Source: Aestuariimicrobium kwangyangense DSM 21549 (GTDB lineage: Bacteria > Actinomycetota > Actinomycetes > Propionibacteriales > Propionibacteriaceae). From it: a DNA stretch of 64,000 nt. Below the pieces are notes generated by a model that did not search any database, was not told the DNA's origin, and saw only the letters and a program-made list of their open reading frames with translations. Position 1 is the first letter of the stretch. Each line of letters begins with the position of its first letter. The stretch lies in NCBI RefSeq assembly GCF_000421525.1, contig NZ_ATXE01000003.1:1-64000 (forward strand), written 5' to 3'. Both the position numbers and the translations under genes were made by a program. Below are positions 27,101 through 60,654 of the stretch, piece after piece.

Positions 27101-27394
27101 ATCTTCCTCGTGCCCACCCGGATGGACACCCAAGGTGTCTCCCGCGACGAGGCGATGTCCTCGGGGATGGTGCCGGTGACGACCGCGGTCGCCGCAGTGC
27201 CGGAGTTCGTGGACGAGACCTGCGGAGCCTTGGTCCCCGGCGAGGACTCGTGGGCCCTCGCCGAGGCGGTCTGGTCGCTGGCGCACGCTCCGGACGTCTT
27301 CCTGGAGAAGTCGGAGAAGGCCGCGAAGCGAGTGAGAAGGCAGACCTCCGTCGACGTCGTCATCCCACAGGAGTTGTCGATCCTGCCGACGTGA
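24179..27394 (+). CDS. Multi-domain glycosyltransferase: CgeB/DUF3880-like + degenerate GT2 + beta domain + GT4
   Basis: 1071 residues. GTG at 24179 overlaps the previous stop and has GAAGGAG 8 bp upstream. Residues about 25-345 form a CgeB/DUF3880-like GT-B module marked by LLIESAWRG, TAFWNKEDPVHYRTFL, FTTDLDMVGHY, LPFAAQPSIHNP and NLNLNSVKQSQSMFARRVYE. Residues about 350-500 resemble a GT2 domain, but the metal motif seen as MDDDDLY in the paralogue at 30019 is LDPKDWY here, so it is probably inactive. A beta-rich region follows (about 560-690), then a GT4 domain (about 699-1071) with VSNIYPDYHQLYRN, IRPYVNATY, FHGDGPLF, and DTQGVSRDEAMSSGMVPV. Likely builds a repeating unit on the cytoplasmic face. 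Sugar specificity unknown. Confidence 0.85.
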   Translation: MSNVPAFMAERQLNRSEVPIRRRSGPAGHLTVACILDDFSAACFSPEVDLSPLTMRDWRAELIATQPDMLLIESAWRGHRQTWWNQVFRMGPEIRGVLEWCRERNIPTAFWNKEDPVHYRTFLTLAKEFDAVFTTDLDMVGHYRAALGHHNVHFLPFAAQPSIHNPIEEFRRIEGCAFAGAYYKKYPERTEDLGNLSESLASVAPFHIYDRNFGGSDPDYAFPESYQTFIVGGLAPDQINVAYKGYTTNLNLNSVKQSQSMFARRVYELMASGTLVVSNFSRGLRTMFGELAIVSDSPGEIQTTLQRVDSVPNGRERLRAMALRKVMAQHTYGERIAFIAHCLGLIEAPRATAPRVLMVAPCGDEEDVEASVRTALSQSHPEWLLATVGPAGGSPRDDRVRHFVDDEQAMQWGRSQGAEHAALLDPKDWYSPSYLSDLVATLEWADVKCVGLDEHFRLIDGIPTRTRAGHGWQMARELAPTRCMVTGEAWHRISSLSEWANATFDGLAVGALGYCAGGRQAGAEHLASLDDLQVDLGSDLAVLRDHSRALDPPDMPTSPWDFDLPRLQELFPATAEVAVELDDLGRVHVRSELEPGMHRYVYLPPMDIDGNINPLDRTVMFSVGPGLDVTLAVIFLDGAGNRLGHAMANNGHNTPIVAPPGAELMQLGLRVKGRGDAIFERLTGETVLTAPSPVIVPSSTLLVSNIYPDYHQLYRNAFVHSRVKAYRRHGADVDVMVVDPRIAGRRFREFENVDVTVCDAATLDATLQLGQVSSVLVHGPTPEVWNVLASHPELDRVAVWVHGFEIQPWWRRAFNLSTEAERNAAKEVSDARMAFWRAAFENFPANFEMVFVSRQFAATAFEDVGRTLEPHQYRVIHNPIDTDLFQYVAKDAAQATRVLSIRPYVNATYANDLAVAAVLHLSEREGFEDLSFSFHGDGPLFDATLAPLQKFPNVTIHKGFLRHDEIAALHRSHGIFLVPTRMDTQGVSRDEAMSSGMVPVTTAVAAVPEFVDETCGALVPGEDSWALAEAVWSLAHAPDVFLEKSEKAAKRVRRQTSVDVVIPQELSILPT

Positions 27395-29075: not shown

Positions 29076-29227
29076 GATTCTCCTGTGTTCTCCCCGGGCA
29101 GGTGTATGGCGAGTCGCCATGGTCGTCGCACATGGGCCATCCACCCTTGATCGACGCTGCCCTGACGAGTCTAGGCGAGCGGTCGCGCCCCCATGTTCCC
29201 ATCCAGGCCTGCGCACAGCGCCCGTGG

Positions 29228-31878: not shown

Positions 31879-31930
31879 CGGATCGGTACCGTCGCCCATG
31901 GCGGCATCACACGAGGAGAAGAGGCATCCC

Positions 31931-33088
31931 ATGGCGGGCAAGGTACTGGTCGTGTACGGCACGCGCCCCGAGGCGATCAAGGTGGCGCCCCTGATCGCGG
32001 AACTGGGCCGCTCAGAGGTGCTCGAGGTCAAGACCGCCGTCACAGGCCAACACCGAGAGATGCTCGACCAGGTGAACGAGTTGTTCGGCATCGTGCCCGA
32101 CGTCGACATGGACCTGTTCGCTCCCGGACAGTCCCTCAACACACTGGCTGCCAAAGTGATCCGCGGTACGGACGAACTGCTCGACCACATGTCCCCAGAT
32201 GCGGTCGTGGTGCAGGGCGACACCACCACGGTGGCCATGGTCGCCATTGCTTCGTTCATGCGCGGGGTCAAGGTCGTACACCTCGAGGCCGGGCTCCGGT
32301 CCCACGACATCCTGTCGCCCTTCCCGGAGGAGGCCAATCGCCGCCTCGCGGGGCAGGTGACGGCCCTGCACCTCGCTCCCACCACCCAGGCGCGTGACAA
32401 CCTCGTCCGCGAGAACTTCAACGTCGACGACATCGCCGTCACGGGGAACACGGTGATTGATGCGCTCCTCGAAGCCGCAAAGAAGCCGGTGGTCTTCGAC
32501 GATCCGCGCGTGGCCCAGGTGGTCGAGTCGGGGGAGAAGATCCTGCTGCTCACGGTTCACCGGCGCGAGAACCTCGGGGAACCGATGGCGCAGATCGCTC
32601 GCGCCATCGCCGACCTCGCCCGCTCCTACCCGAGCCTGCAGGTGGTCTTCCCGGCGCATCGCAATCCCAAGATGCGCGATGTCGTCTTCCCCATTCTCGA
32701 GTCATTGCCCAATGTCACGATCACCGAACCGCTCGACTACCTCCAGTTCGTGCACCTGCAGAAGGCGGCCCACATCGTGCTCACCGACTCCGGCGGCGTC
32801 CAGGAGGAGTCACCGGGGCTCGGCAAGCCCGTGCTGGTGCTCCGCGAGAACACCGAGCGTCCAGAAGCCGTGCAAGCCGGCACCGCGCGCCTGATCGGCA
32901 CCGACACCGATCGCATCGTCTTCGAAGCGCGCCGCCTGCTCGATGACCCCGCCGCCTACCTCGAGATGGCTCAGGCGACGAACCCCTACGGTGACGGCAA
33001 AGCCTCGCAGCGGGCCGTGGCGGCCATCGCCCACCTGCTCGGGCTCGGAGTGAGGCTTCCCGACTTCGGAGCCCCCGTCGCCCCATGA
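31931..33088 (+). CDS. wecB: UDP-N-acetylglucosamine 2-epimerase (non-hydrolysing)
   Basis: 385 residues. Interconverts UDP-GlcNAc and UDP-ManNAc. Landmarks: LVVYGTRPEAIKVAPLI, TGQHREMLDQV, VQGDTTTVAMVA, HLEAGLRSHDILSPFPEEANR, LLTVHRRENLG and TDSGGVQEESPGLGKPVLVLRENTERPE. ATG 31931 is preferred over ATG 31898 because AGAAGAGG lies 6 bp upstream and the resulting MAGKVLVVYGT is the normal family start. wecC, for the next step, is at 50653 in the same gene region. Confidence 0.96.
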   Translation: MAGKVLVVYGTRPEAIKVAPLIAELGRSEVLEVKTAVTGQHREMLDQVNELFGIVPDVDMDLFAPGQSLNTLAAKVIRGTDELLDHMSPDAVVVQGDTTTVAMVAIASFMRGVKVVHLEAGLRSHDILSPFPEEANRRLAGQVTALHLAPTTQARDNLVRENFNVDDIAVTGNTVIDALLEAAKKPVVFDDPRVAQVVESGEKILLLTVHRRENLGEPMAQIARAIADLARSYPSLQVVFPAHRNPKMRDVVFPILESLPNVTITEPLDYLQFVHLQKAAHIVLTDSGGVQEESPGLGKPVLVLRENTERPEAVQAGTARLIGTDTDRIVFEARRLLDDPAAYLEMAQATNPYGDGKASQRAVAAIAHLLGLGVRLPDFGAPVAP

Positions 33089-36100: not shown

Positions 36101-36125
36101 GTTGCGTAGGGTGCCTGTGTCGTGA
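33102..36125 (+). CDS. Membrane-anchored beta-propeller protein with carbohydrate-binding-like domains
   Basis: 1007 residues from GTG 33102, 13 bp after the wecB stop. An N-terminal helix (about 7-27, TILAVVGVVVIVLVSAAIL) serves as signal anchor or signal peptide, followed by a Pro/Ser/Thr linker, two GDFE/GGFE jelly-roll-like domains (about 60-210 and 210-355) and a large beta-propeller (about 365-1007). Repeats include GSVYTGSQGGHVYHW, DGRIWGGTYPGGELI, GSLYVGGYGGASLAVV, FLGTYTRGKIFRYDT and DIAYGGTSRWGG. It matches the product of 17464-20427 domain by domain, often word for word. No catalytic motif was recognised. Probably faces the wall and contacts the exported glycan. The stop overlaps the next start by 4 bp. 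Confidence 0.82.
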   Translation: MTPRNRWTILAVVGVVVIVLVSAAILRVTGSSRAPGPTPTSPSGRGATPRPQSSSTTDLGQLGDFEAGNPIPLGWQVNAPRGVTVETSSTRAVTGKRSLYVADETPSAGATVMGPALTMVGGAVTYLRGRAFITQGQQDMSLVFYDRLGKELGRVSGSAVPSAGRWSTVTLRGVAPEGVAVAQVVISTADKGLSQGWWDALASLEPALRNGGFEDAPSRTEPVPGWTDASNAAGSARVVTDDPRTGRRALELLAAEPADTARVTSSLTPVFGGGATRLRMWVRQGTRALEVTVDWFASDGTPAGTEHVDLTSPGTQWRLASRDLNAPTLASTARVTFTAWGPSSVTLDGVTLLPIVDGLSLPGEGGIVGDPLDDFSNVVQTTLTTVDGRLKACAIVSGYPAHFQVVDVVTGDLEADLPFDNPNFSQSGAIAVADDGSVYTGSQGGHVYHWDPVTNTLQDLGRATATATAVFDLTPGPDGRIWGGTYPGGELISIDPTSHLVSNHGQVAPGRDYARAIAVDESYVYVGVGSSTPAIVRIQADDTTKRTTIPLPVPVTTGTVSELSVYGNFLATNVPTGKTPDGTSHPGQRYLYDLTRKTWDVAANVPGQAPVGEDSKGRFFYLRGGSLVGVDSSSGRASTIARHIKVDPWQGRTIHQGVMAGLDGEWMVLFQPASGLQAVNLANGKVVTVNFSFRPVSLRMKSLAVGPEGSLYVGGYGGASLAVVDPATGEASQYPLDRTARGVIGEVEGMISQGRYQFLGTYTRGKIFRYDTTQPWVDGSNPTLVADLSGDLQDRPQAWATSGGRTYFGTVPAYGHRGGVLGVIETPTSAPRVIEQPVPGQSVVSLAASGDIAYGGTSRWGGLGATPIKGDARVFAYDTRSGRLLWSVAPVSGAQSFGGMVLTHDGQLWAATGGTLVRLDPTTGRVMKTVVAAKLSQPERVAWRNVDLKEAEGRLYLAAGGSIHRVDLASGAVTTPVPSGVTHQLLAVVDGEVYFPTGASLRRVPVS

Positions 36126-38455
36126 GCACACCGCTGAAGGGAACCGGTACTGGTATGGCCAACTCGGGGCTTCCGGCTGCTTCGGACTACGGACGATGGG
36201 GGGAAGCCCCTGCCGCCTGGGACTCTCTGAAGTCGTTCGGCGAGGCGGCTCAGTGGCGGCCCGGGGTTCACGTGATCTGGCTGTCGCCGGCCACTCACCT
36301 CGACGTGCTCGTCGTCGGGGACCTGCATGAGGCGGCGGCCGATCGCGCGGTCCCGGTGTTCCTGAGTGGTGCGGTGACGGGGCGCAACGGCGCGTCCGGG
36401 CCGTTCTTCTCAGGCTTGGGCGTGATGTCCGAGGTGGGTGGCCCGTACCTGTGCTTGTCGGACCCGACCCTGGACCACGACTCCGAACTCGCTCTGGGCT
36501 GGTACACGGGACTTCCCGGCGAGGGCGTGCGTGAAGCCATGGCCCACTTCCTTGCGGCCGTCCACACCCGATTGGGTCGGGAGTTGTTGTTGGTCGGGGG
36601 CAGCGGTGGTGGCTTCGCGGCACTCTCTCTGGCCGAGGTCACTTCGGTACCCACCTCGGTCTTCGTCTGGAACCCCCAGACCGACATCCTGCGGTACTCG
36701 CCCGGTCCCGTACTCGACTACCTCTCTGCCATCACCGGCTTCACCACAGCGGACCTGCGTGCGCTGAATGACGACGACCGCGCCGCGTTGTTGTCTGAGC
36801 GCGGGATCACCCATGCGGTGAAGGCTCGTGCAGTGGCCGCGAACCCACACGTACGACGGCTGATGTACGGCCAGAACGCCACTGACTGGCATGTCGGCAG
36901 CCACTTCTTCCCCTGGCTCGACGACTCACCCCTCGAGGCGAGCGGACGTGACTCGTATGTCCGTGGTGACACCCACGTGGCGCTCCTGTCCGAGATCAGC
37001 GTCGGGCACGACCCGTGGCCGAAGCCCGTCATCGTTCGGGTGCTGCAGGTATTGGTGAGGTGCGAGAACAACCCCGTCCCGCTGGTCGACCGCCTGAAGC
37101 AGGAGGGTCTGCTTCCGGCCGACGGGCTCGACAACCTGCCCCGCCGCTGGGATGCGCGAGAGGGTCTCGAGCAAGACCTGCGGGCGATTGTCTGGCGAGC
37201 AACGGATGGAATCCGAGTGCGAGCCACGTGCGTTTCCGGGGCCACCCAACCAGCTGGGCTCTCGGCTCTCGCTGACCCGGCGCCCGAGGGCGAACTGGTG
37301 ACCGTGTCGCTGCGAGACGGGCTGGGCGTCGAGATCGGTCAGCGTCAGGTGCCAGCGGTGACCCCTCCTGCTCGGCTCAAGATCTTCGTGTACGGCAGTT
37401 GCGTCTCCCGCGACACGTTCGCCTACTTCGACAGCACCGTCTTCACCCTCAGCAACTACGTGGCGCGACAGAGCCTGGTGTCGGCCTTCGCTCCCGCCGG
37501 CGATCCCCTCATCGACCCGGCCAAGCTGTCGAGCTCCTTCCAGCGCAGGATGCTCGAGTGGGACGCTGAGTCTGCGCTGCCACGCCTTCTGTCCCAGCGG
37601 GCGCCAGAAGTTGACCTGCTCCTCTGGGACCTCACCGACGAACGACTCGGCGTCTGGCTGTACGACGACGGCCACGTCACCACGTCGTCGGTCGACATCG
37701 CCCCGCACCTGCCCGACGGGCTCGTCAACCGGCGGAGGATCCCGTTCGGTACCGACGAGCATTTCTCACTGTTCCGGGCGGCCCTTCACCAGTGGCGGTC
37801 TCTGTTGGAGCAATGCGGAGTGCTCCACAAGGCGGTGCTCCTCGCGCCACCGTGGGCCACGCAGACTCTTCCAGTTGGCGTTGCCGTGGAGGGGCGCGGA
37901 CCCACGGCCGAGGAGGCGAACCGTGTCATGCCCCGCTACCTCGACCTGATCGAAGAGGTCACGGGAGTGCCTGTCGTGGGACGGGGCCTGAGCGACGTCC
38001 GGTCACCCACGGCGCATCGTTGGGGAGTGGCACCCTTCCACTATGACGAAGCCACCCACGTGGAGCTCGCCCGTGCGGTGCTCGGCCTCCACGGTGGCCT
38101 GATCCGTGAACGAGTGTCTTCCGCGATCGACCCGCTCGCCCTCGTCACCCGCGTACCTCCACGCCCACCCATCGTGGAGGCGGAACGACGGTCGGCCGTC
38201 AACCGAGGCGGTGCAAACATCCGCCAGGTGCGCCGACAGATCGAGGTCACCCTGTCAGGCGTCCCATTCGCTTCGGTGAGGATCGACCTCTATCGGGGCA
38301 GCGAGCGGGTTTCGGCCGGCCCGTGGTCGAAGGAGGCGAGCGCCACCATCCCGATCGACGAGGCAGGTCTGTATCGGGCCCGGGTGCACGTGCTTGATCG
38401 CCAGGGATCCCGGATCGCCATTGCCTCGAACACCTTGCGGGTCAGCCGGCTCTGA
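36122..38455 (+). CDS. Alpha/beta-hydrolase-like + DUF6270-like fusion with C-terminal Ig-like domain
   Basis: 777 residues; GTG at 36122 overlaps the previous stop. Residues about 45-340 look like an alpha/beta hydrolase: VHVIWLS, PVFLSGAVTGRNG and a nucleophile elbow LLVGGSGGGFAAL (Ser near 160). Residues about 418-650 are a DUF6270-like domain with IFVYGSCVSRDTFAYF, SSFQRRMLEWD and HRWGVAPFHYDE, paralogous to the whole product of 29240-29998. Residues about 690-777 are a beta-rich, Ig-like tail (VTLSGVPFASVRIDLYRGSERV) comparable to the tail of the heparinase fusion at 38503-41190. Two possible hydrolase/esterase units in one chain suggest glycan acylation or deacylation, but this is unproven. 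Converges with the minus-strand operon. Confidence 0.78.
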   Translation: MSTPLKGTGTGMANSGLPAASDYGRWGEAPAAWDSLKSFGEAAQWRPGVHVIWLSPATHLDVLVVGDLHEAAADRAVPVFLSGAVTGRNGASGPFFSGLGVMSEVGGPYLCLSDPTLDHDSELALGWYTGLPGEGVREAMAHFLAAVHTRLGRELLLVGGSGGGFAALSLAEVTSVPTSVFVWNPQTDILRYSPGPVLDYLSAITGFTTADLRALNDDDRAALLSERGITHAVKARAVAANPHVRRLMYGQNATDWHVGSHFFPWLDDSPLEASGRDSYVRGDTHVALLSEISVGHDPWPKPVIVRVLQVLVRCENNPVPLVDRLKQEGLLPADGLDNLPRRWDAREGLEQDLRAIVWRATDGIRVRATCVSGATQPAGLSALADPAPEGELVTVSLRDGLGVEIGQRQVPAVTPPARLKIFVYGSCVSRDTFAYFDSTVFTLSNYVARQSLVSAFAPAGDPLIDPAKLSSSFQRRMLEWDAESALPRLLSQRAPEVDLLLWDLTDERLGVWLYDDGHVTTSSVDIAPHLPDGLVNRRRIPFGTDEHFSLFRAALHQWRSLLEQCGVLHKAVLLAPPWATQTLPVGVAVEGRGPTAEEANRVMPRYLDLIEEVTGVPVVGRGLSDVRSPTAHRWGVAPFHYDEATHVELARAVLGLHGGLIRERVSSAIDPLALVTRVPPRPPIVEAERRSAVNRGGANIRQVRRQIEVTLSGVPFASVRIDLYRGSERVSAGPWSKEASATIPIDEAGLYRARVHVLDRQGSRIAIASNTLRVSRL

Positions 38456-38502: not shown

Positions 38503-41190
38503 TCATCCGCCGGCAGGGACGACGACCCAATTGCTCGTGAGCGCAACCGGCTGGTCGTCGGCCCCACCCCGCCCGAACACGCGAACGCGGTAGCGGCCGG
38601 GCGACAGGCCCTCGAAGACGAATTCGCGTCGCGGACCATACGCAACGGTGGCCACATGGTCGCCGCCGCGAAACAGCCGGGCCGAGTACTCCCGCCAGCT
38701 GCCCTGGACGACCCTCGCCGTCACCCCACCCGACTCAGCCGCTGCCTGGATGACCAACAGGTCTGCATCGGTGGGCGTCGAGTCGCCGTGCAGCACCTGG
38801 GCCAGGTGGCTGGCCAGAGCGTCACGGTAGGCCGGCCCGAAGTCCCCGTGGGTGAGTCCGGGCAGGGTCACCAGGGAGGGCGTACCACCCAGCGCCTGCA
38901 CGTGCTCGATGAACGGAAGCACGTGACCCTTGTAGTGGTGATCCTTGTCGCCGACCAACACGGTGATGCGGGAGTTCCGCCAGAGCCCGAGGTTGTCGGA
39001 TGCGAGGTCGTAGAGGGCACGGTTCAGCTCCTCGATGTTCTCCTCAGAGGTGCCGCCCGTCATGAACTCGAGCACATTGGGGTGGGGTGTCGCGACGAAG
39101 TTGCCGATCAGCGTCTGGGGCCCTCCGACGAAGATGTCTCCCGCCCCGAGGGCCATGCCGTGCATCAGCGCCGCCGTCGCACCCTTCGAGGACCCGACAC
39201 ACACCAAGTCGTCCGGGGTGAGGCCCAATTGCTCCAGGGTGCGGCGGATCAGCGCCTGCACTGAGCGGAAGATGGCGCGGTCCCCGTGGTCCTGCAGGTA
39301 GTACGCGCCCTGGTCGCCGAAGTCGTCGAGGATGTACAGGGCCTCGGCCTCGGCGGCATCGATCACGGGCTTGTAGTTGTAGGTGAAATCCCCGCGCTGG
39401 TGCATGCTCGTGAAGGCCACGACCAGCCGACGCTGCGTCCTGCCCTTGGTGCGCAGGTGGTTCACTCCCACCTCTGACTCGAACCGTCGCCAGCCTGAGC
39501 GGGGGCCGACGCCGCGGTCTCGGTAGGTGAAGTCGTGCAGACGGATGCTGGTCCCGATCTGCACATCAGTTCCTGCGAATGACACCACCGCCACGTCGTT
39601 GGGCTCGTGCTGACCCATCGCCGGGAATCGCCAGCCCAGAGGCTTGCGACCGGCGACCCCCTTCTTGACGCTCGTGCGAGTCGGGACGTCGGCTTGCCAC
39701 CACGCGTCCATCACCTTGGTGCCGTGATGGTGAACCTCGTAGCCCTGTCCATGGGGAATGACCTCGAGGTCCTCACCCGCGTGCCAGAGCAGTTCATAGG
39801 CGTGAGGCGAAGGGGCCGTGATCCGGTCGGTGACCTCGATGACAGGTCCGCCGTCGGCGTCGACCACGTCGACCGTGCGCTCATGCACGACACCGTCACG
39901 GAGTCGCGCGTTGCGGCCGGTTGCGGTGAACCCGTCGTCATCTGCGCTGCTCACGCTCATGGTCACGGTCGCCAGGTCACCACCGGTGCGGGGGATGCTC
40001 GTGCCGTCGACCACCAGGGTGCTGTGGGCGTACTGGGAGTAGGCGTACTTCGTGAGCGGATCGCCGTAGTTGTAGCCGTTGGGCCCGGCCTCACTGATGA
40101 GGTCGAGGCGCTCGTGGCGCAGGAACAGGGAGTTCTCGTCTGCGTGCTTGTGGTAGTCACCGTTGTAGGCGGAGCTGAAGAAGACGTAGGTGGCGTCGGG
40201 ATCTCCCCAGGCGCTGCGGTGGATGGCGTACCCCGATTGCGGCAGGACCAAGGTGCGCGTGTCTGGCTCGACGCCCCGCTTGCCGACGGTGGCGGCGTAC
40301 GAGAAGTGGTCGTCGCCGAAGCTGCTTGCTCCGCCGGCGAGCGGAGCGACGGTCGTGTCGCTGACCGGTGGGTAGACGCCGGTGGGTGTGACGGCGTGGG
40401 TGGCGTAGGCGAGTGTGCCCGCGAGCAGGTCTTCGAAGCTGGTGAGCTCGACATGGTCGACGGCTCGCAAGACCTCCAGGTGGGCCATCAGCTGTCGCGA
40501 CACCATCAGGTGGTAATTGGGGGCGTGCTCGATGTGGACGCCCTCGGCGGTGAAGGCGTGCCGGAAGTAGGCGTTGAGTCGACCCAGCGCGGTCGCCAGG
40601 AGGGACTGCCTGAGTTCCTCGGATTCCCACGTCGCCACTCCGGCCCAGTTGACCACGGCGATGTCCTGGAACATCCCGTGGTTGTTGAGGCCCGCGTGGA
40701 AGGCGTCTGAGGCCAACAAGTCGGCTGTCTGGTCGACGAACTCGTGCAGTTCACGCAGTCGACCCTCGTCCAGGTGCTTCGACCAAGCGTCCATCATGGC
40801 GAGATGCATCGTGAGCCGCTGGGCTGTCGTCTCGTCGTGGAACGCCATGCTCGAGGGGTCGCTGCGCCATTCGTCGGCGTGGGCTCGCCACTGACGGGTC
40901 AGCTCCAGGGCCGTTTGGGCCAGTTCCGCGTCGTCGCCCGCTGCAGCGACCCAGTCGGTGAACCAGAGGAAGCCGTGCGCGTAGCGGGCCCGCGAGCGAT
41001 CGGTCTGCTCGGTCCACATCCCACCTTCGTGGAAGGCGATGTCACCGAACTGGGCAGACTCGAACACGCGCTCCGCCATGAACCGGCGAGCTCGCGCAGC
41101 GGCAGGCCCGTTGGTCGCGTGGGGGAGGCGGCGACGTACCACCGGCTCCAGTGCGCCCAGCGACGACGTGGCCATGACCGGCCCCGTCAT
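38503..41190 (-). CDS. Heparinase II/III-like + alpha/beta hydrolase (Asp2-like) fusion
   Basis: 895 residues. The ATG at 41188-41190 overlaps the upstream stop (ATGA); MATSSLG at 41175 is an alternative. Residues about 60-560 are a heparinase II/III unit with NNHGMFQDIAVVNW near 169, Tyr in EHAPNYHLMV near 225 and YHKHADENSLFLRHE near 348, matching the lyase catalytic positions. Residues about 575-800 are an alpha/beta hydrolase with VVAFTSMHQRGDF, VCVGSSKGATAALMHG (nucleophile Ser 668), GDKDHHYKGHV and LPGLTHGDFG, resembling Asp2-type hydrolases. The tail (about 805-895) is Ig-like. No signal peptide is visible. It may cleave or edit the glycan and remove or add an acyl group. Last gene of the export operon. 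Confidence 0.82.
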   Translation of the reverse strand: MTGPVMATSSLGALEPVVRRRLPHATNGPAAARARRFMAERVFESAQFGDIAFHEGGMWTEQTDRSRARYAHGFLWFTDWVAAAGDDAELAQTALELTRQWRAHADEWRSDPSSMAFHDETTAQRLTMHLAMMDAWSKHLDEGRLRELHEFVDQTADLLASDAFHAGLNNHGMFQDIAVVNWAGVATWESEELRQSLLATALGRLNAYFRHAFTAEGVHIEHAPNYHLMVSRQLMAHLEVLRAVDHVELTSFEDLLAGTLAYATHAVTPTGVYPPVSDTTVAPLAGGASSFGDDHFSYAATVGKRGVEPDTRTLVLPQSGYAIHRSAWGDPDATYVFFSSAYNGDYHKHADENSLFLRHERLDLISEAGPNGYNYGDPLTKYAYSQYAHSTLVVDGTSIPRTGGDLATVTMSVSSADDDGFTATGRNARLRDGVVHERTVDVVDADGGPVIEVTDRITAPSPHAYELLWHAGEDLEVIPHGQGYEVHHHGTKVMDAWWQADVPTRTSVKKGVAGRKPLGWRFPAMGQHEPNDVAVVSFAGTDVQIGTSIRLHDFTYRDRGVGPRSGWRRFESEVGVNHLRTKGRTQRRLVVAFTSMHQRGDFTYNYKPVIDAAEAEALYILDDFGDQGAYYLQDHGDRAIFRSVQALIRRTLEQLGLTPDDLVCVGSSKGATAALMHGMALGAGDIFVGGPQTLIGNFVATPHPNVLEFMTGGTSEENIEELNRALYDLASDNLGLWRNSRITVLVGDKDHHYKGHVLPFIEHVQALGGTPSLVTLPGLTHGDFGPAYRDALASHLAQVLHGDSTPTDADLLVIQAAAESGGVTARVVQGSWREYSARLFRGGDHVATVAYGPRREFVFEGLSPGRYRVRVFGRGGADDQPVALTSNWVVVPAGG

Positions 41191-44100
41191 CCGGCCAGCA
41201 CGCCGCGCAAGGCGGCGAGGACGTTCGACTGGGCGAAGTGGGCGCGGACGAATGCCTTGCCCGCCTCGACGTCATGGTCGCCGGCGATGATGTGGTCCAC
41301 CAGCTCGTCGACCGTGGGCTCGATCCACGCAGCGGGATAGATCAGGTCGGCGCCCGACCAGGCCACCGTCACCGGCAGGGCGCCCGAGGCGGCCCCGTCG
41401 GCGATCGTGAGGTGGAAGGACTCGAAATCGCTGGTCGAGAGGACCACACCTATGGAGCGGTACCACTGCGGCATGTCGTCGCCGTGGCCGTCGAAGACGA
41501 CGGTTCCCGGGGCGGCCTCGTTCAGGCGGTCGATCCGTTCCTGCTGGGCGGCGTACCACTTCATCTCGTCGGGCCGCTGTGCCATCCAGGGGTAGTCCTC
41601 CAGTCGCTTCCCCTTGATCCGCAGCCGGTGGTCGTGGCCGCGGTCACGCAGTCGCTCGACCACCTCGATGGCTCGGTCGAGTCGCTTCGTCTGGGGCACG
41701 ATACCGACGAAGCCGATGGTGTGTTCCGCTCCGGGCAGCTTGGGCAGGTCGAGTGCATCGACATCGACAGGGTTGGGGATCACCACCGCCTTGTGGGCGG
41801 GCACCCCGTGACTGCGAATGGCCGCCTGCCGGATGAGTTCGCCGACGAACACGTAGCGATCGACGGCAGCATGTCTGATCTGCGACAGGTACGGGCGTCG
41901 AAGTTCCTGGGAGTGCACCCGCACGACCAGGCGCTGCTGCGCTGAGACGTGCTTGGAGTACCACACCGCGTTGCCCAGCCCCCACTCGCAGAGCACCACA
42001 TCGGCCTGCGCCAGCAACTGCAGTGAGGTGGCTTCGTCGTGTTTGGTGTGGGACTGCCAGACGTCGGTGAGCACGGTGGCTCCCGCCTTTTCCAGCGACG
42101 TGATCAGGGCCGTCGCGAACTTCAGGTCATGGCCGGCGACCAGCACCGTGCGGCCTTCGAGGGACTGACCTGCGGTCTTGTCAGTCATGTCGACGATCCC
42201 GTGGTTCGAGTCGTGCGGGGGTGCACTCATCGTGGTCAGCCTCACCCCGGTCACCCCGTTGCGATGCAGGGCCTCGTCCAGGCCCATCTCGTCCACCAGG
42301 ACGCGGGCGACCAGGCCTGCCGAACTGCTCGGTGCGTCTGTCGGCGTCGCCAACGGGGACGAGAGCGACAGGCCCTCGTCCGCTGCGGGCTCGATCCGTT
42401 CCCATGGCCCGTAGGCATTGCTCAGCAGCAGGTCCTCGAACCACGTACGCGTGAGTGCGGCGAGGGTCGATTCGTCCAGGATTCCGACGTAGTCGGCCGT
42501 GGCCTCACCGCGCGGCACCACCTCGATGCCCAGCTCGGCCAGCAGGGCGTGGGTTTCCTGATCGACCTCGCCCATGACCTGACGAGGCAGAACCGACTGC
42601 TGCGCCACTGCTCGGAGCGCGAGGGCGGGATCCGAATGGCGAATGTCCAAGGCGTAGGTCGCCAAGGTCACTCCCTCCACCGACAGCCCGGCTGTACGGG
42701 TCAGGATGGTGAGTGCGCTGGCGACGGTGTGCGCCCGCAGCACCGACCGAACTTGCAGCCATGCCTCCGCGAGCCTGGCCTGGGGGTTGCGGGACCAACG
42801 GCCGAGCCAGGCGCGCCACATCAGCGGATCGGCACTGACGGGGATGGCTGAGCCGAAGGTCTCCTCGATACCGCGACCGGGACCGGAGAGAACCACCCCA
42901 CCGCACGCGGCGATCTCGACCACGCGTCGGGAGAACATGGAGGGCGAGTCAGAGACGCTGTTGACGTTCAGGTTCGCGAGGTGGGTGGAGTAGGCATCGA
43001 TCACCTCGTCGTAGGGCAGGCTGCCGCGGACGAAGGGCTGCAGCGAGGCGGGGAATCGGTAGGGAGAATCGGGATCGTCTGCCTGCCGGTCGTAGATCGT
43101 CAGGCCGAACGGCTCGGCTGTCGTGAGCAGCGAGGCGAGTTCCGCCGAGCGCTTCTTGTAGCGGTCACCGTAGAACGTTCCGGCGTAGGCAACCGTCGGC
43201 TCGAAGGTGCGCGACCTCGCCAGGGGATTGTGAATCCTCGGCTGGGCGTAGAAGGGAAGTGCCGAGGCTGTTCTCACCGTCCCGAGCCCAGCCCGCAGGT
43301 ACGGGCCGATCATGTCGGCGTCGGTGGTGAACACGTGATCGCAGAGGGCAGCGGTGTCGACGAAACGCGCGAAGTGGACTGGGTCCTCCTTGTTCCAGAA
43401 GACTGTCGGGATTCCGCGTTCGCGCGCGGATGAGAGCAGCGCGGCGATGTCTGCGTGTTCGTCGTCCTCGTACCGTCCGACGCCCCTGAACCACTGACCG
43501 TGGTTGCCCTTCCAGGCCGACTCGATGAAGACGAGGTCGAGTCCTGCCAGTTGGTCGGCCCAGCGGTGCCTGTCCAAGGGTTGGGTCTGCATGGAGGCCG
43601 CCAACGTCTGGCTCGTGAACTCGTCGGCGATGAGTCCGACCCGCAGGTCGGACAGACTGCGCGCCGGGGTGGCATCGGCGAGGCGCTGCTGCTCCAGCCC
43701 GGCGTCGGTGTGGGCCTGTCGCACCTGGGCGGCGACGACGTCCCACGTGCGCTCTCGCAGGCACCACTGCCTCCCGGCCCGGCCGAGATCGGCCCGGCGG
43801 TCAGGATCGTCGATCAGGTCTGCCAGCGCGTCGGCCAGGCCCACGGGGTCGCCAGCGGGGACGAGCAACCCGCGGGGCGGCGCCGTGGGATCGTCCGCCC
43901 CGGCGTAGATGCGGTGCGGTTTCACGTCGGAGAGCACCACTGCCTTGGCGCTGCTCAGGGCCTCCAGCGGCTTCAGTGGTGACACCATCTCGGTGACGGG
44001 AAGACTGAGGCGGGGGAGCGGCATGATGTCGAACAGACTGAGCAGCCGGGGCATTTCCGCGTTGGGCAGCCGTCCGAGCAGTCGCACCCGGTCGCTCAGT

Positions 44101-45752
44101 CCCAACCTGGTGACCTGCTTGGCGAGGTCGGCTTCGGCCTTCCCGCTGCCAGCGATCGCGATGGTGAACTCGCGGCCCCGGTCCCGCAGCAGGGCAGCCG
44201 CGTCGAGCAGGGTTGCCAGTCCTTCGTAGGTGACCAGGCTGCCTGCGAACCCGATGACAGGGTGCTCCAGTGGGATTCCGTGGCGGGCTGCGTAGGCCTC
44301 GTCCTTGGGCAGGGGGAGGAACTCGTGGGGATGCACCGCGTTGGGTGCGAGACGGATGCGCGCGGGGTCGACACCCCGAACGACAAGTTCGTCCCTCAAT
44401 TCCTCGGTGATGGCCAGCACTGCATCTGCTTCGGTGAGCACCAGGTTCTCGAGCGAGACCTGCATCTCGTAGCGTTCTGTGCCCTCGAAGCCGGGGCGGT
44501 CGGAGGCCTCGGTGATCTCCCAGAGACCGCGAACCTCGTAGACGAACGGCAGCCCGAGGCGTCGCGCGGCGATCAAAGCGGGCAGGGCAGTGCGATGGTT
44601 CGAGGCGGCGTGGATCAGGCTCGGGCGCTGCAGTCGCGCCTCCCTCACGTAGGCGTCTGCCGCCTGCAACAGGTAGTGGTCGAGAGGGGTGCGCGTGAGG
44701 TCGGGGCCGGGCAGGTGCACGTACTCCACGTCGTTGATGGTGCGCGACCACCGCTTGCGCCTGGGGTGCTTGGCCTCGGTCTTGGTGTCCCAGGGGTAAC
44801 CGGCGCGTGCGACCACCGTGACATCGTTGCCGCCGGACCGTAGGGCCGAGACGATCCCGCCCGTGCGCGTGGAGTATCCGTTCGTGTGGAAGGCCGGGGT
44901 GGAGTGTGCGCAGTACATGATGCGCCCCCGCTCCGGGTGGTACGCAGCACCGGGGCTGCGCGGCGGCACCACCACGGCTCCCGTGATGATGCGTTCGTCC
45001 CCCAACGCTCGGGCGGCGAGGGCCTGGCCCCAGTCGCCCATCGCACCCACGAGCTCGGAGTGCCGCCGCAGGGCGGCGCAGACTTCGGAGACATGTCCGC
45101 CGACGTTCCACCCGTACTGGAGCACGTCCAGCAGGTTCGCAGGGGCCGGATCCGCATCGAGGGCTGTCACCAGCAGCTGCAGTTCCCGCGCATTCGACGT
45201 GCCCGTGGACGTCGCCGTTGGGCGGGGCGAGGAACTGCCCGGAGCGGCCGCGGTCGCCGACCGGTGCGCGGGTGGCCCGTTCGAAATGGCGGGGGCGCTC
45301 TGGGAAGGAGCGGCGGGCGGGGGAGTGGACGCAGTGCTCGCGAGCTGCGCAGCGGTGGCCACGGTGGAAGGGCGGCCGACGGCACGACGGGTTGCCGATG
45401 CCCGCTGCTTGACCATGGCCAACGGATGCAGCGCCCACCTGCCCACGAGCCAGGTGCGAGACCCGCGGAGTCGCTTCAGGTCGTCCTTGAGGCGCTTGTT
45501 CTCCACCCGGTAGGCGGCCAGGGCCGCGTTGGCCTGGGCCAACTGGGACTTCTGCGCAGCAAGGGCAGCGCGGGCACGCTCCGCCTCCCGCTTGTTCGTC
45601 TCGGCGTCCTTGCCCTTCGCGGAGCCCTTGGGTGAGGTGGAGCGTGCCGCCATGCCGAGGTACTTCGTCCAGAATTCGTCGAAGTGGGTCAAGGCGTCCT
45701 CACGGCGCAGGTCGTCGATCTGTCGTGGGTCGCGCGTCTCGTCAGCGTGCAC
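41187..45752 (-). CDS. 1521-residue modular glycosyltransferase (coiled coil + GT4 + CgeB-like + degenerate GT2 + GT4)
   Basis: GTG at 45750-45752 with GAGGA upstream, 19 bp after the ABC ATPase stop. Layout by residue: a charged N-terminus and coiled coil (about 45-97), RGSRTWLVGRWALHP (95-110), a low-complexity Ala/Pro/Ser linker (130-190), GT4 (275-690) with YEVRGLWEITE, FAGSLVTYEGL and TEMVSPLKPLEAL, a CgeB/DUF3880-like module (703-1020) with FIESAWKGNHG, TVFWNKEDPVHFARF and LNVNSVSDSPSMFSRRVVE, a GT2-like remnant (about 1022-1175) lacking the acidic cluster (ILDESTLAAL), and a second GT4 (1200-1520) with FVGIVPQTKRLDRAIEVVE and TSDFESFHLTIADGAASGALP. Probably several linkages are made by one chain, with the coiled coil organising a complex at the membrane near the exporter. 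Sugars unknown. Confidence 0.87.
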   Translation of the reverse strand: MHADETRDPRQIDDLRREDALTHFDEFWTKYLGMAARSTSPKGSAKGKDAETNKREAERARAALAAQKSQLAQANAALAAYRVENKRLKDDLKRLRGSRTWLVGRWALHPLAMVKQRASATRRAVGRPSTVATAAQLASTASTPPPAAPSQSAPAISNGPPAHRSATAAAPGSSSPRPTATSTGTSNARELQLLVTALDADPAPANLLDVLQYGWNVGGHVSEVCAALRRHSELVGAMGDWGQALAARALGDERIITGAVVVPPRSPGAAYHPERGRIMYCAHSTPAFHTNGYSTRTGGIVSALRSGGNDVTVVARAGYPWDTKTEAKHPRRKRWSRTINDVEYVHLPGPDLTRTPLDHYLLQAADAYVREARLQRPSLIHAASNHRTALPALIAARRLGLPFVYEVRGLWEITEASDRPGFEGTERYEMQVSLENLVLTEADAVLAITEELRDELVVRGVDPARIRLAPNAVHPHEFLPLPKDEAYAARHGIPLEHPVIGFAGSLVTYEGLATLLDAAALLRDRGREFTIAIAGSGKAEADLAKQVTRLGLSDRVRLLGRLPNAEMPRLLSLFDIMPLPRLSLPVTEMVSPLKPLEALSSAKAVVLSDVKPHRIYAGADDPTAPPRGLLVPAGDPVGLADALADLIDDPDRRADLGRAGRQWCLRERTWDVVAAQVRQAHTDAGLEQQRLADATPARSLSDLRVGLIADEFTSQTLAASMQTQPLDRHRWADQLAGLDLVFIESAWKGNHGQWFRGVGRYEDDEHADIAALLSSARERGIPTVFWNKEDPVHFARFVDTAALCDHVFTTDADMIGPYLRAGLGTVRTASALPFYAQPRIHNPLARSRTFEPTVAYAGTFYGDRYKKRSAELASLLTTAEPFGLTIYDRQADDPDSPYRFPASLQPFVRGSLPYDEVIDAYSTHLANLNVNSVSDSPSMFSRRVVEIAACGGVVLSGPGRGIEETFGSAIPVSADPLMWRAWLGRWSRNPQARLAEAWLQVRSVLRAHTVASALTILTRTAGLSVEGVTLATYALDIRHSDPALALRAVAQQSVLPRQVMGEVDQETHALLAELGIEVVPRGEATADYVGILDESTLAALTRTWFEDLLLSNAYGPWERIEPAADEGLSLSSPLATPTDAPSSSAGLVARVLVDEMGLDEALHRNGVTGVRLTTMSAPPHDSNHGIVDMTDKTAGQSLEGRTVLVAGHDLKFATALITSLEKAGATVLTDVWQSHTKHDEATSLQLLAQADVVLCEWGLGNAVWYSKHVSAQQRLVVRVHSQELRRPYLSQIRHAAVDRYVFVGELIRQAAIRSHGVPAHKAVVIPNPVDVDALDLPKLPGAEHTIGFVGIVPQTKRLDRAIEVVERLRDRGHDHRLRIKGKRLEDYPWMAQRPDEMKWYAAQQERIDRLNEAAPGTVVFDGHGDDMPQWYRSIGVVLSTSDFESFHLTIADGAASGALPVTVAWSGADLIYPAAWIEPTVDELVDHIIAGDHDVEAGKAFVRAHFAQSNVLAALRGVLAG

Positions 45753-45771: not shown

Positions 45772-46674
45772 TCAGATCTCTTCATCAACGACCCAACCCT
45801 CGGGTTCCTCCCGAGGTTTGGCCGCCAGTTGCTCGCGTTCCCTCTCGGCCCACAGGTCGCCCGCAAGGGTGTCGCGCATCACCTTGTCGGCCTCGGCGAA
45901 ATTCTCCTGCGCCACCTGCCAGGCCCACTGCCGGTACGTGCGGGCCACGATGACGGCGTCACCGTCGGTCACCAGTTCACCCTCATGCAACCACACTGCG
46001 CGGGTGCACAGCCTTTCGATCGTCTGAGCGGCGTGCGAGACGAGGAAGATCGTGCCCGCCTGTTCACGCAAGCGCTTGATGGTGCGGGCCGAGCGCTCCG
46101 CGAAGGAAGCGTCTCCCGTGCCGAGGGCCTCGTCGATCAGCAGGATCTCCGGATTCGAAGCTGCGGCGATGGCGAAGCGCAGCCGGGCACCCATTCCCGA
46201 GGAGTAGGTCGACATGGGACGATTGATGGCGTCCCCGATACCGGCCAGTTCCAGGACGCGCGGGGTGATCTGGGCAACTTCCACCGGGGAGAAGCCCAGC
46301 GCCAACAAGCCGAGTCGCACGTTCTTGCGGCCGCTCATGTGGGGGAGCAGCGCGGCGTTCACGCCCAGCAGCATGGGAGTCGCCGTGGCGAGCACCTGGC
46401 CGTGATCGGGTGGCTGCACGCCGGCAATGACCCGCAGCAGGGTGCTCTTTCCCGATCCGTTGGATCCCACGATCCCGACGTGCTCGCCCTCCCGCACCGT
46501 CAGCGACACGTCACGCAGGGCGTGCACCTTGGTGCGCGAGACCCGGCTGACGACGCTGTGCGCCAGTCGGTGAAGGGCGTTGCCGTCGGGCGGTGGCTCG
46601 ATCTCGCTGTCGTAGGTGACCGAGACATCCGTGATGACCACGGAGACCTGGGCTTCCTCAGCGGACTCGACCAT
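45772..46674 (-). CDS. Polysaccharide ABC exporter, ATP-binding subunit (Wzt/TagH type)
   Basis: 300 residues. ATG at 46672-46674 is chosen for the GGGAGG 6 bp upstream and overlaps the permease gene by 17 bp; the longer frame is unsupported. Walker A is GIVGSNGSGKSTLL, the signature is STYSSGMGARLRFAIA, Walker B is EILLIDEALGTGD, and the switch His is in IFLVSHAAQTI. The N-terminal ALRDVSLTVREGEHVGIVG is typical of O-antigen/teichoic-acid exporters. The C-terminus (about 240-300) is a short charged extension rather than a full Wzt carbohydrate-binding domain. Powers export with the permease encoded just upstream. Confidence 0.93.
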   Translation of the reverse strand: MVESAEEAQVSVVITDVSVTYDSEIEPPPDGNALHRLAHSVVSRVSRTKVHALRDVSLTVREGEHVGIVGSNGSGKSTLLRVIAGVQPPDHGQVLATATPMLLGVNAALLPHMSGRKNVRLGLLALGFSPVEVAQITPRVLELAGIGDAINRPMSTYSSGMGARLRFAIAAASNPEILLIDEALGTGDASFAERSARTIKRLREQAGTIFLVSHAAQTIERLCTRAVWLHEGELVTDGDAVIVARTYRQWAWQVAQENFAEADKVMRDTLAGDLWAEREREQLAAKPREEPEGWVVDEEI

Positions 46675-47551
46675 AGGAGACCTCCCCACGCCAGAACCAG
46701 ACGAGCCCGAACGTGCTGACACCCACCGCCCACATGGTGAGTTGGATCCATTCCCCGGGTCGTGGCATGTAGCCGCGCATGAGCAGTTCGCGGTACATGT
46801 TGATCAACAGGAACAAAGGCTGGTGTTGCACCACTGCCTGGGCGTGGGGAATGGCTGCGAACCGGTCGACGGACCACATGACTGCTGATCCGTACATCAG
46901 AATTCGAATGAGATATCCCAACAAGTGCCGCGCATCGGGAAAGGCAGCCCCGATGCGCGCCGTGATGAGGGCGGCGCCCACGTTGAACAATGACTGCAGG
47001 GCGAACAGGAACGGCACCATGATTGCCGTGGAATGGGGCCAGTGCTGCGAAAGCACGTGAACGACGATGAACATCACCACCACGACCGGCAGCGTCTGCA
47101 GGGCCTCACGCAGGGTGGAGGCAAGCGGGAGCGATGCCCGAGGGAACGAGAAGGCCCGGATCAGGCCGGTGCTGTTGTGGACGCTGTTGACTCCGCTGGT
47201 CAGGGCGCGCGTGGTGAAGCTGAACATCAGCACGCCGATCACCACGTACGACGGGAAGTTGGCGATGCGTGACTGGAACAGCACCCCGAAGATGAGGATG
47301 TAGATGCCCGCGTCGAACAGCGGGTTCAGCACGAGCCAGAGATTGCCCAGCACCATGCCCCGGTTGCCCGAGAGGGCTTGGGCCCTGGACTGCGCCCAGA
47401 TGAAATGGCGGCGATCCCACAACTGCCGCATGTAGTCGCGCAGGGGTGGCCGGCCACCCACCCTTCTCAGTTCGGCGTAGTCGAGGCCACGCCGGGGAGT
47501 CTCGCGGCTCAGCCTGGGCAGCGCGAATGCGGCCCTCCGAGACGGTTCCAT
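46658..47551 (-). CDS. Polysaccharide ABC exporter, permease subunit (Wzm/TagG type)
   Basis: 297 residues of the ABC-2 membrane family. An amphipathic N-terminus (RDYMRQLWDRRHFIWAQSRA) precedes six membrane helices, including GMVLGNLWLVLNPLFDAGIYILIFGVLF (split here in meaning: the coupling motif NLWLVLNPLFDA then the helix) and VVVVMFIVVHVL. ATG at 47549-47551 overlaps the upstream GT4 stop (ATGA). Pairs with the ATPase at 45772-46674. This exporter class moves complete lipid-linked polysaccharides such as teichoic acids, O-antigens or teichuronic-acid-like chains. Confidence 0.93.
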   Translation of the reverse strand: MEPSRRAAFALPRLSRETPRRGLDYAELRRVGGRPPLRDYMRQLWDRRHFIWAQSRAQALSGNRGMVLGNLWLVLNPLFDAGIYILIFGVLFQSRIANFPSYVVIGVLMFSFTTRALTSGVNSVHNSTGLIRAFSFPRASLPLASTLREALQTLPVVVVMFIVVHVLSQHWPHSTAIMVPFLFALQSLFNVGAALITARIGAAFPDARHLLGYLIRILMYGSAVMWSVDRFAAIPHAQAVVQHQPLFLLINMYRELLMRGYMPRPGEWIQLTMWAVGVSTFGLVWFWRGEVSYGRVR

Positions 47552-50498: not shown

Positions 50499-50652
50499 GG
50501 TCGGCTCCCGGTGACAATCAGGGGATGGGTGGCAATCGGATCACGAGGCGCAAATGGGCGCAATGATGGGGTGATACCCTCTCGGAGAACTTAACAGACC
50601 TCGTCCCCGGCGTGTGAGACGAGCACTCCCTATGGTGAGGAAACCAGAATCC

Positions 50653-51906
50653 ATGGATGACACCATCGTCGTGATCGGGCTCGGCTACATCGGCCTGCCC
50701 ACCGCCGCCGTGCTGGCGCGAGCCGGCAAGAACGTGATCGGCGTCGACGTCTCCGATCGGCACGTGAATGCCGTCAATGCCGGGGAGCTGCCGTTCATCG
50801 AGGACGGGCTGGGCGAGGTCGTGGCCCAGGTCGTCCGGGAGGGCCACCTGACCGCCCGCAAGGACACCCCGCAGGGTGACGTCTTCATCATCGCCGTGCC
50901 CACCCCGTTCGCGGAGGGCCACAAGGCCGACCTCAGCTACATCGACGCCGCCACCAAGGGCATCGCGCCGCAGTTGCAGGGCCATGAGCTGGTGATCCTC
51001 GAGTCGACCTCCCCGCCCGGAACCACCGAGCACGTCCGTGACCTGCTGGCCCAGTTGCGTCCGGAGCTCACCGACCTGCAGTTCGCCCACGCCCCCGAGC
51101 GGGTACTCCCGGGGCGGATCATGGTCGAGATGGTCACCAACGACCGCATCATCGGCGGCATCACCCCCGAGGCCGCCGAGCGCGCTGCCAGGCTGTACGC
51201 GTCGTTCTGCCAAGCCGAACTGCACCTGACGGACGCCACCACGGCCGAGATGGCCAAGCTCACCGAGAACGCCTTCCGCGATGTCAACATCGCGTTCGCC
51301 AACGAACTGTCGCTGATCTCCGACCAACTCGGGGTCGACGTCTGGGAGCTCATCGAGCTCGCCAACAAGCACCCGAGGGTCAACATCCTCCAGCCCGGCC
51401 CCGGGGTGGGTGGGCACTGCATCGCCGTCGACCCGTGGTTCATCGTGTCGAGTTCGCCGGACCACGCGAAGCTGATCAACCAGGCCAGGCACGTCAATGA
51501 CGGCAAACCCGACTGGGTGATCGACCAGGTTCGCGCTGCCCTCGACGACCCGTCCCTGGCAGACAAGGCAATGAAGACGGTCGCCTGCCTCGGGCTGGCC
51601 TTCAAGCCCGACATCGACGACCTCCGCGAATCTCCCTCGCTGCACATCGTCGAGCGACTTGCGGCCGAGCTCGACAACGCCGATGTGGTGGCGGTCGAGC
51701 CCAACGTGAGTGAACTGCCCGAGAGTCTCGCCGGTCGAGGCGTCACCCTGGTCGACCTCGAGGATGCCAGCGACGCCGACGTGATCGTGTTGCTGGTCGA
51801 CCACAAGGAGTTCAAGGCGATCCCAGCTGAGCGACTCGACGGGCGACTGCTGGTCGACACCAAGGGGCTGTGGCGTCGCCGCCGACCCCAGACGCTCGCC
51901 CGCTGA
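50653..51906 (+). CDS. wecC: UDP-N-acetyl-D-mannosamine dehydrogenase
   Basis: 417 residues. Oxidises UDP-ManNAc to UDP-ManNAcA in two NAD-dependent steps. Visible: VVIGLGYIGLPTAAVLARAG (NAD fold), VPTPFAEGHKADLSYID, ESTSPPGTTEH, APERVLPGRI, KLTENAFRDVNIAFANE, GPGVGGHCIAVDPWF with the catalytic Cys, and GLAFKPDIDDLRESPS. ATG 50653 gives the family-typical start, with GAGGA 11 bp upstream; in-frame starts at 50614 and 50632 are alternatives. Divergent from the export operon (154-bp gap) and convergent with the small membrane-protein gene. Supplies an acidic sugar together with WecB. Confidence 0.95.
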   Translation: MDDTIVVIGLGYIGLPTAAVLARAGKNVIGVDVSDRHVNAVNAGELPFIEDGLGEVVAQVVREGHLTARKDTPQGDVFIIAVPTPFAEGHKADLSYIDAATKGIAPQLQGHELVILESTSPPGTTEHVRDLLAQLRPELTDLQFAHAPERVLPGRIMVEMVTNDRIIGGITPEAAERAARLYASFCQAELHLTDATTAEMAKLTENAFRDVNIAFANELSLISDQLGVDVWELIELANKHPRVNILQPGPGVGGHCIAVDPWFIVSSSPDHAKLINQARHVNDGKPDWVIDQVRAALDDPSLADKAMKTVACLGLAFKPDIDDLRESPSLHIVERLAAELDNADVVAVEPNVSELPESLAGRGVTLVDLEDASDADVIVLLVDHKEFKAIPAERLDGRLLVDTKGLWRRRRPQTLAR

Positions 51907-53153: not shown

Positions 53154-56630
<3,477 letters not shown>

Positions 56631-56647
56631 GTTCTCAGCCGACCCGA

Positions 56648-56678
56648 CGCGGTCGTCCCCCTGGTGAGGACGACCGCG
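56648..56678 (+). terminator. Hairpin between rpoB and rpoC
   Basis: Perfect 11-bp stem CGCGGTCGTCC/GGACGACCGCG with a 9-nt loop, 17 bp after the rpoB stop. No T-run follows. It may be a partial terminator, an RNA-processing site or an mRNA stabiliser in the rpoB-rpoC transcript. Confidence 0.45.
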
Positions 56679-56763
56679 GCGGGCCCGGCAGGACCAGTCC
56701 AACCCCCAGAACTCAGACACATATTCAGCACCTGCGAAGAGCAGGGAAATGGAGACAACCACC

Positions 56764-60654
<3,891 letters not shown>

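Follow-up and report, generated by a model that had tools for sequence, protein, structure and literature searches.

One gene in the window analysed here, a 64,000-nucleotide stretch of Aestuariimicrobium kwangyangense DSM 21549 (assembly GCF_000421525.1, contig NZ_ATXE01000003.1), encodes an 895-residue protein that joins a heparinase-type unit (head 1), a unit resembling the O-acetyltransferase CsaC (head 2) and an FN3/Ig-like tail. The gene lies on the minus strand at 38503..41190. We propose that its product works in the cytoplasm, where its two heads would tailor a wall glycopolymer that contains uronate, probably N-acetylmannosaminuronic acid (ManNAcA), and would couple the O-acetylation of this polymer to C5 chemistry on it. 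We give this reading a probability of about one half. The domains, folds, conserved catalytic positions and gene neighbourhood are reported as observed, and from them we infer the substrate, the two activities, the interplay of the heads and the role of the tail.

The fusion gene and its product

The open reading frame is real. Its G+C content by codon position (0.69/0.47/0.85) has a coding pattern, and its start codon is credible because the ATG overlaps by 4 bp (ATGA) the stop codon of the preceding gene (41187..45752, minus strand), which encodes a 1521-residue protein with several glycosyltransferase domains. The AlphaFold2 model of the fusion, built from an alignment of 23 sequences, had a mean predicted local distance difference test score (pLDDT) of 88.4 and a predicted template modelling score (pTM) of 0.81. 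A preliminary description had placed a heparinase unit and a hydrolase-fold unit in a single 895-residue chain, and this is borne out by Pfam, the model and the structure matches. The motif positions given there hold to within one residue: N169-N170-H171-G172, H347-K-H349-A-D351 and G666-S-S668-K-G670, with the tyrosine at 226 and not at 225. The domain search that it had proposed returned Pfam Hepar_II_III_C and Hepar_II_III_N above their cut-offs and Asp2 below its own, and the predicted structure contains an alpha/beta-hydrolase fold at residues 562-798. Judged by hydropathy only, the protein lacks hydrophobic stretches like those of signal peptides or membrane segments (maximum KD19 1.2). 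This agrees with its earlier description as cytoplasmic-looking and would fit a use of acetyl-coenzyme A (acetyl-CoA).

The architecture is not a chance one, because both heads share one open reading frame in 17 of the 40 related loci of one genome scan. This number counts locus L052, in which BLAST does not recognise the decayed second head and only the alignment places it. The alignment used below, A1, covers 22 of the 40 loci, namely the 17 fusions and five loci with the heparinase part only; counts over 18 fusions include the window protein, and the 23 rows include the five without the acetyltransferase. The 18 loci outside A1 are L047, L058 and L063, which have a broken frame, L057, which has the acetyltransferase part only, L055, and the heparinase-only loci L060 and L064-L075.

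Head 2 resembles the acetyltransferase CsaC

Head 2 (residues 562-798; 38797..39507, minus strand) is a CsaC-like alpha/beta-hydrolase-fold domain and a predicted O-acetyltransferase, with S668, K669, Q692, D750 and H781 as its key positions. CsaC, the acetyl-CoA-dependent capsule O-acetyltransferase of Neisseria meningitidis serogroup A, is the closest solved protein both by PDB profile (E 9.5e-18 over residues 587-796) and by structure (Z 27.9, root-mean-square deviation (rmsd) 2.0 over 224 residues). Gap2 (6OYC) is a close second with Z 26.8, 1.1 below CsaC, and the best plain serine hydrolase listed, FphF, has Z 21.9. Residues Y79, S114, K115, Q138 and D198 of CsaC align to Y630, S668, K669, Q692 and D750, and H228 lies one column off the conserved H781 in the HMMER row. 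Ser668 stands in the GSSKG nucleophile elbow, as was noted earlier. Across the 18 fusions the serine is kept in 17, the aspartate in 17 and the histidine in 14, with all three together in 14; Q692 and Y630 are each kept in 15.

According to the accessible text of PMC7501274, CsaC moves the acetyl group of acetyl-CoA to Ser114, and ManNAc (N-acetylmannosamine) is O3-acetylated. The Q138A replacement removed 96.8% of the transfer activity; the authors call this glutamine unique to CsaC, and the same text notes its strong conservation among several bacterial proteins that are uncharacterised. The alpha/beta-hydrolase family is one of two families of capsule O-acetyltransferases, as stated in the accessible part of PMC7387560. 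The likeness in sequence and in modelled structure suggests that head 2 probably adds rather than removes acetyl groups: acetylation is likelier than deacylation because CsaC matches better than the best plain hydrolase and because Q692 is kept. The earlier terms "esterase" and "deacylation" are therefore not retained.

The label "Asp2-like" fared better, as Gap2 makes it a fair second best. Nevertheless, both Asp2 models stay below their cut-offs (PF16929: residues 620-724, E 6e-5, 22.7 bits against 28; TIGR03712: 18.7 bits against 210.75), and for this reason membership of the Asp2 family was set aside. The PDB 9HVZ group gives a profile match with E 2.3e-11, and one listed molecule name in it mentions ACoA; no paper on 9HVZ or its sister entries turned up in a literature search. 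Matches to TAL effectors at residues 627-677 were taken for repeat noise, as none of the stretches passes alone, and the MavL, PALP and Esterase matches of Pfam, all below cut-off, were ignored. On plasmids of about 100 kb in Enterobacter, Klebsiella and others, an Asp2-annotated protein matches residues 606-762 of head 2 with about 28% identity.

Head 1 has the fold and the catalytic positions of heparinase III

Head 1 consists of a helical (alpha/alpha) domain (residues 15-300; 40291..41148, minus strand) with HDETTAQR at 118-125, NNHG at 169-172, Y226 and H227, and a beta domain (residues 313-556; 39523..40254, minus strand) with H347, H349, D351, E367, Y373 and H389. Pfam assigns Hepar_II_III_N (PF16889) to residues 77-280 (E 8e-6, 25.9 bits, cut-off 22) and Hepar_II_III_C (PF07940) to residues 313-531 (E 1e-24, 87.8 bits, cut-off 24). 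The model of residues 15-556 matches heparinase III (HepIII, 4MMH) with Z 33.6 and rmsd 4.6 over 518 aligned residues. Other polysaccharide lyases rank next, and human dermatan sulfate epimerase 1 (DS-epi1, 6HZN) stands lower, with Z 19.5, rmsd 5.4 over 486 aligned residues and a Foldseek E of 1.5e-10. The HepC model NF045573 did not reach its equivalog cut-off (19 against 700 bits).

All 23 aligned rows are invariant at H118, D119, E120, R125, N169, N170, H171, Y226, H227, H347, H349, D351 and H389. In the profile alignment N170-H171, Y226, H347, E367, Y373 and H389 correspond to the Asn-His, Tyr, His, Asp, Tyr and His of HepIII, and the position of E367 is Asp in two rows. The catalytic Asn, Tyr and His and the metal ligands of the family are kept. 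The tyrosine aligned to Y226 is position 294 of HepIII (chain index + 24, our count), and Tyr 294 is the acid/base of family PL12 in the accessible text of PMC11848413. The catalytic residues of DS-epi1, including the tyrosine pair, are conserved in heparinase II (PMC8006597, accessible part), so that the sequence cannot separate a lyase from an epimerase here. Cleavage, as suggested in the preliminary description, is possible for head 1, but the C5-epimerase DS-epi1 works with a closely similar active site.

The window holds a second heparinase II/III protein (27423-29216, minus strand; PF07940 E 1.6e-11), in which NNHGVMA replaces NNHGMFQD. Its gene is convergent with a gene for a 1071-residue protein with multiple glycosyltransferase domains (24179-27394, plus strand). 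A third heparinase II/III gene of the genome lies at G000:C2:385962.

The tail is shared with other proteins of such loci

The tail (residues 806-895; 38506..38775, minus strand), modelled alone, is a beta sandwich with a pLDDT of 94.6. FN3/Ig-like domains match it with a best Z of 10.3 and a best Foldseek E of 9.1e-4, which confirms the earlier mention of an Ig-like tail. A profile of 18 tails matches the C-terminus of DUF6270 proteins in the window (36122-38455, E 2.2e-6), L037, L038 and L046; in L037, L046, L057, L059 and L061 there are proteins with the match at the N-terminus. Four of these five N-terminal cases carry hexapeptide acyltransferase repeats (L037:10603-11805, L046:10697-11728, L057:5928-6920 and L061:13223-14224), and the one in L059 has no Pfam match. 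That several probable modifying enzymes in such loci have this module in common suggests that it may serve in docking or in binding the polymer.

The gene stands in a polymer-building locus

Upstream of the glycosyltransferase gene, on the minus strand, lie genes for a TagH/Wzt-like ATPase of an ATP-binding cassette (ABC) exporter (45772..46722; PF00005 above cut-off, TagH model below cut-off with 169.5 of 320 bits) and for an ABC-2 membrane protein that probably belongs to this exporter (46658..47551). The plus strand carries a UDP-GlcNAc 2-epimerase, a WecB equivalog (31898..33088; 448.8 bits, cut-off 210.15), and a UDP-ManNAc dehydrogenase, a WecC equivalog (50614..51906; 559.7 bits, cut-off 459). 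WecB and WecC stand beside glycosyltransferases and an exporter, the arrangement expected of a ManNAcA (teichuronic-acid-like) polymer locus. Together, these two enzymes make UDP-ManNAcA. Because the window holds both, the wall polymer probably contains ManNAcA, like the teichuronic acid of Micrococcus luteus. According to the accessible text of PMC3005890, the latter is [4-ManNAcA-(1-6)-Glc]n and is made by a glycosyltransferase complex.

A homologue of the 1521-residue glycosyltransferase (at least 250 aligned residues) flanks 15 of the 17 fusions of the scan and lies within 30 bp in 7 of them. In these flanks WecC was found 8 times, WecB 8, TagH 6 and DUF6270 7; the flanks span at most about 8 kb, and these counts are lower bounds. 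A WecC-like match occurs in all 22 searched genomes with a fusion or heparinase relative (that of L041 lay outside this set), in 18 of them above cut-off. We also searched 149 genomes of the family of G440 with A1; 53 had any match and 10 had full-length fusions. WecC exceeded the cut-off in 9/10 genomes with full-length fusions and in 71/139 others of this one family sample (Fisher p 0.016, relatedness ignored). In the tenth fusion genome, G563, two adjacent stretches in different reading frames each match WecC in part.

Distribution and related forms

Among 57 close genomes, including the genome itself, no second full-length copy was found, and one other genome matched residues 610-682 only. 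In the class, 37 of 394 genomes (again counting its own) gave a match in a first look that scored few candidates per genome; among the matches listed, the window protein alone covered both domains. A homologue on a plasmid of Caballeronia insecticola covers 87% of the query, is annotated "heparinase II/III family protein" and has glycosyltransferase genes close by. In the Kocuria loci L054 and L056 the heads are two adjacent open reading frames in reverse order; counted from the first start codon, they overlap by 4 bp. In L049, L051 and the broken L058 the heparinase part and the tail are present and the acetyltransferase is missing. L049 has probably lost it, because this locus sits among fusions in the tree and keeps the tail. 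The tree of the heparinase part (29 rows) has four changes between fusion and heparinase-only forms; its deep branches are long and unsure.

Text patterns found the HDE and NNHGMFQD signatures together in the Bacillota loci L064, L065, L066, L070 and L074; L067-L069, L071-L073 and L075 show only NNHGMFQD. L064 adjoins WecB- and WecC-like genes. In Paucisalibacillus (L055:7452-11162) a protein of 1236 residues carries two tandem heparinase II/III units and lies between a glycosyltransferase gene and WecC-like/TagGH-like genes.

Proposed mechanism and alternatives

We suggest that multi-domain glycosyltransferases assemble the polymer inside the cell and that a TagGH/Wzm-Wzt-like ABC transporter would then export it. 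Exporters of the Wzm-Wzt type take chains that are finished in the cytoplasm, so a cytoplasmic enzyme that modifies the polymer would make sense. Head 2 would take the acetyl group from acetyl-CoA onto Ser668 of a Ser668-His781-Asp750 triad, with Gln692 helping, and would transfer it to a hydroxyl group on a sugar of the polymer, as in CsaC. In head 1, Tyr226 would take the C5 proton of the uronate, with Asn170/His171, His347 and Tyr373 assisting, and the reaction would most likely end in beta-elimination, trimming or editing the chains. Acetylated residues may resist head 1, by analogy with alginate, in which acetylation protects residues. Between them, the heads would determine the length or the pattern of the chains, and the tail may hold the polymer or partner proteins.

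The activity of head 1 is the point on which the alternatives differ most. A lyase is slightly preferred, at somewhat under even odds, because lyases are the closest structural matches and because lyases and hydrolases such as AlgL, PelA and PslG recur in loci for exopolysaccharide biosynthesis; a C5-epimerase is a serious but lesser candidate, and some other activity is rather improbable. As an explanation of the whole protein, epimerisation of D-ManNAcA to N-acetyl-L-gulosaminuronic acid (L-GulNAcA), or of another uronate, while head 2 acetylates, so that one protein writes both blocks, is doubtful and still deserves weight. DS-epi1 has the same fold, its H450-x-H452 resembles H347-x-H349, the window has a second heparinase-type gene, and a lyase encoded by a biosynthetic, apparently cytoplasmic gene that overlaps a glycosyltransferase gene would destroy the polymer product. 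Most of the catalytic set is common to DS-epi1 and such lyases (PMC8006597 and PMC11848413, accessible parts), and very small changes may be enough to make an epimerase out of a lyase (PMC8006597, accessible part). HepIII, however, matches better (Z 33.6 against 19.5), lyases and hydrolases of the AlgL, PelA and PslG kind do occur in biosynthetic loci, and we saw nothing in the sequence that would tell one activity from the other. The more specific form of this idea, in which a bacterial C5-epimerase converts a ManNAcA polymer to L-GulNAcA and the fused acetyltransferase blocks it, is less likely again. If it held, a single protein would lay down where a wall glycopolymer is epimerised and acetylated, and the dermatan sulfate epimerase fold known from animals would gain a counterpart in prokaryotic biosynthesis.

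The two remaining alternatives are much less probable. The version of the preliminary description, a lyase with a carbohydrate esterase that strips acyl groups ahead of cleavage, is improbable. Esterases do have the alpha/beta-hydrolase fold and the GxSxG elbow, and without polymer CsaC, too, hydrolyses acetyl-CoA (PMC7501274, accessible text), but CsaC fits better by sequence and structure, its extra glutamine is kept in most fusions, and the biosynthetic locus and apparent cytoplasmic site favour acetyl-CoA-dependent addition. Still more improbable is a heparinase head that is catalytically idle and gives the acetyltransferase a platform on which the polymer is bound. CsaC is a complete enzyme by itself, and heparinase folds bind uronate chains; yet the checked catalytic positions are invariant in 23/23 rows, including the five without an acetyltransferase, and it is the acetyltransferase that decays (4/18), not the heparinase.

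Several observations weigh against the coupled, cytoplasmic tailoring enzyme that we prefer. The acetyltransferase histidine is gone in four of the 18 fusions (L050, L052, L062 and L076), and L052 lacks the whole triad, so some fusions can do without an acetyl head in cis; in L062 and L076, both from Staphylococcaceae, a separate GSSKG-bearing relative of head 2 lies nearby. Residue H201 of CsaC aligns to Tyr753 (histidines stand nearby at 751, 752 and 756) and its acceptor Arg 148 to a proline of a PHPN motif of the fusion family's own. As neither is kept in register, the acceptor probably differs. The XcbB/CpsF model NF033892 also scores against head 2 (46.5 bits, E 2.9e-12), although below its cut-off of 125. 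Some Bacillota relatives of head 1 have, judged by eye, apparent signal peptides or membrane anchors, so the subfamily is not always cytoplasmic, and in systems of the L064 type the enzyme may act outside the cell. The fusions of Zhihengliuella (L043 and L045, genomes G499 and G560) have no WecB, WecC, TagH or homologue of the window glycosyltransferase in flanks of about 8 kb on each side; the flank of L045 does carry a family-25 glycosyltransferase gene. WecC of G499 and G560 is on another contig, and that of G471 lies at a distance of about 360 kb. Finally, the p value of 0.016 is weak, because WecC is common in the family anyway (80/149) and relatedness was ignored.

Comparison with known systems

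Each half of the protein belongs to a known fold family; the combination of these families is new. A search of the open-access literature, with most subscription journals outside it, found no paper on a heparinase combined with an acetyltransferase, and within that scope the earlier remark that the fusion is not characterised stands. CsaC (SacC) of Neisseria meningitidis serogroup A (6YUO, 6YUQ, 6YUS, 6YUV) is like head 2 in fold, Ser-Asp-His triad, GSSKG and the extra Gln and Tyr. Its substrate contains ManNAc, and the window locus has genes for UDP-ManNAc and UDP-ManNAcA. CsaC is, however, a single domain of 255 residues, whereas head 2 is fused to a heparinase unit and has no in-register H201 or Arg 148. 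The XcbB/CpsF family (NF033892; PDB 9HVZ group) has a profile likeness to head 2, with a score far under its cut-off. Asp2/Gap2 of the accessory Sec system (6LNW, 6OYC) is similar in the hydrolase fold (6LNW profile E 6.4e-7), but head 2 is below the cut-offs of both Asp2 models.

Heparinase III/HepC (4MMH, 4MMI, 5JMD, 5JMF, 4FNV; PL12) shares with head 1 the fold over residues 15-556 and the aligned Asn, Tyr, His and metal-site positions. Identity is 15%, and head 1 differs in its HDETxxxR signature, its biosynthetic locus and the lack of a visible signal peptide. DS-epi1 shares the two-domain fold, the Tyr and the His-x-His active site, but it is a metazoan Golgi enzyme with a Z of 19.5. The M. 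luteus teichuronic acid system, also actinobacterial, makes a ManNAcA polymer at the membrane by a glycosyltransferase complex, and the accessible text of PMC3005890 mentions no heparinase or acetyltransferase.

The fusion puts a heparinase-family unit, predicted to be cytoplasmic, into a polymer-building locus beside a CsaC-like acetyltransferase, while heparinase-family proteins are usually annotated as degradative. It offers a testable case for the trimming or patterning of an ABC-exported wall polymer ahead of export. It also provides a conserved family outside Neisseria for asking whether the extra glutamine of CsaC turns esterases into transferases, a question that the CsaC authors left open in the Discussion (PMC7501274, accessible text).

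Other features of the window

The neighbour at 36122..38455 (plus strand) encodes a 777-residue protein with an N-terminal GGSGGG hydrolase-like stretch, seen by eye, DUF6270 and the tail domain. Its WNPQTD motif resembles, again by eye, the APQ of CsaC, and a PDB sequence search with this protein gave no match. Open reading frames matching its N-terminal part stand separate in L041, L050 and L058. The window also contains several glycosyltransferase genes and genes for a sugar-nucleotide epimerase/dehydratase and a nucleotidyltransferase (14511, 15601), and rpoB and rpoC (53127-60654, plus strand) lie just past the polysaccharide cluster.

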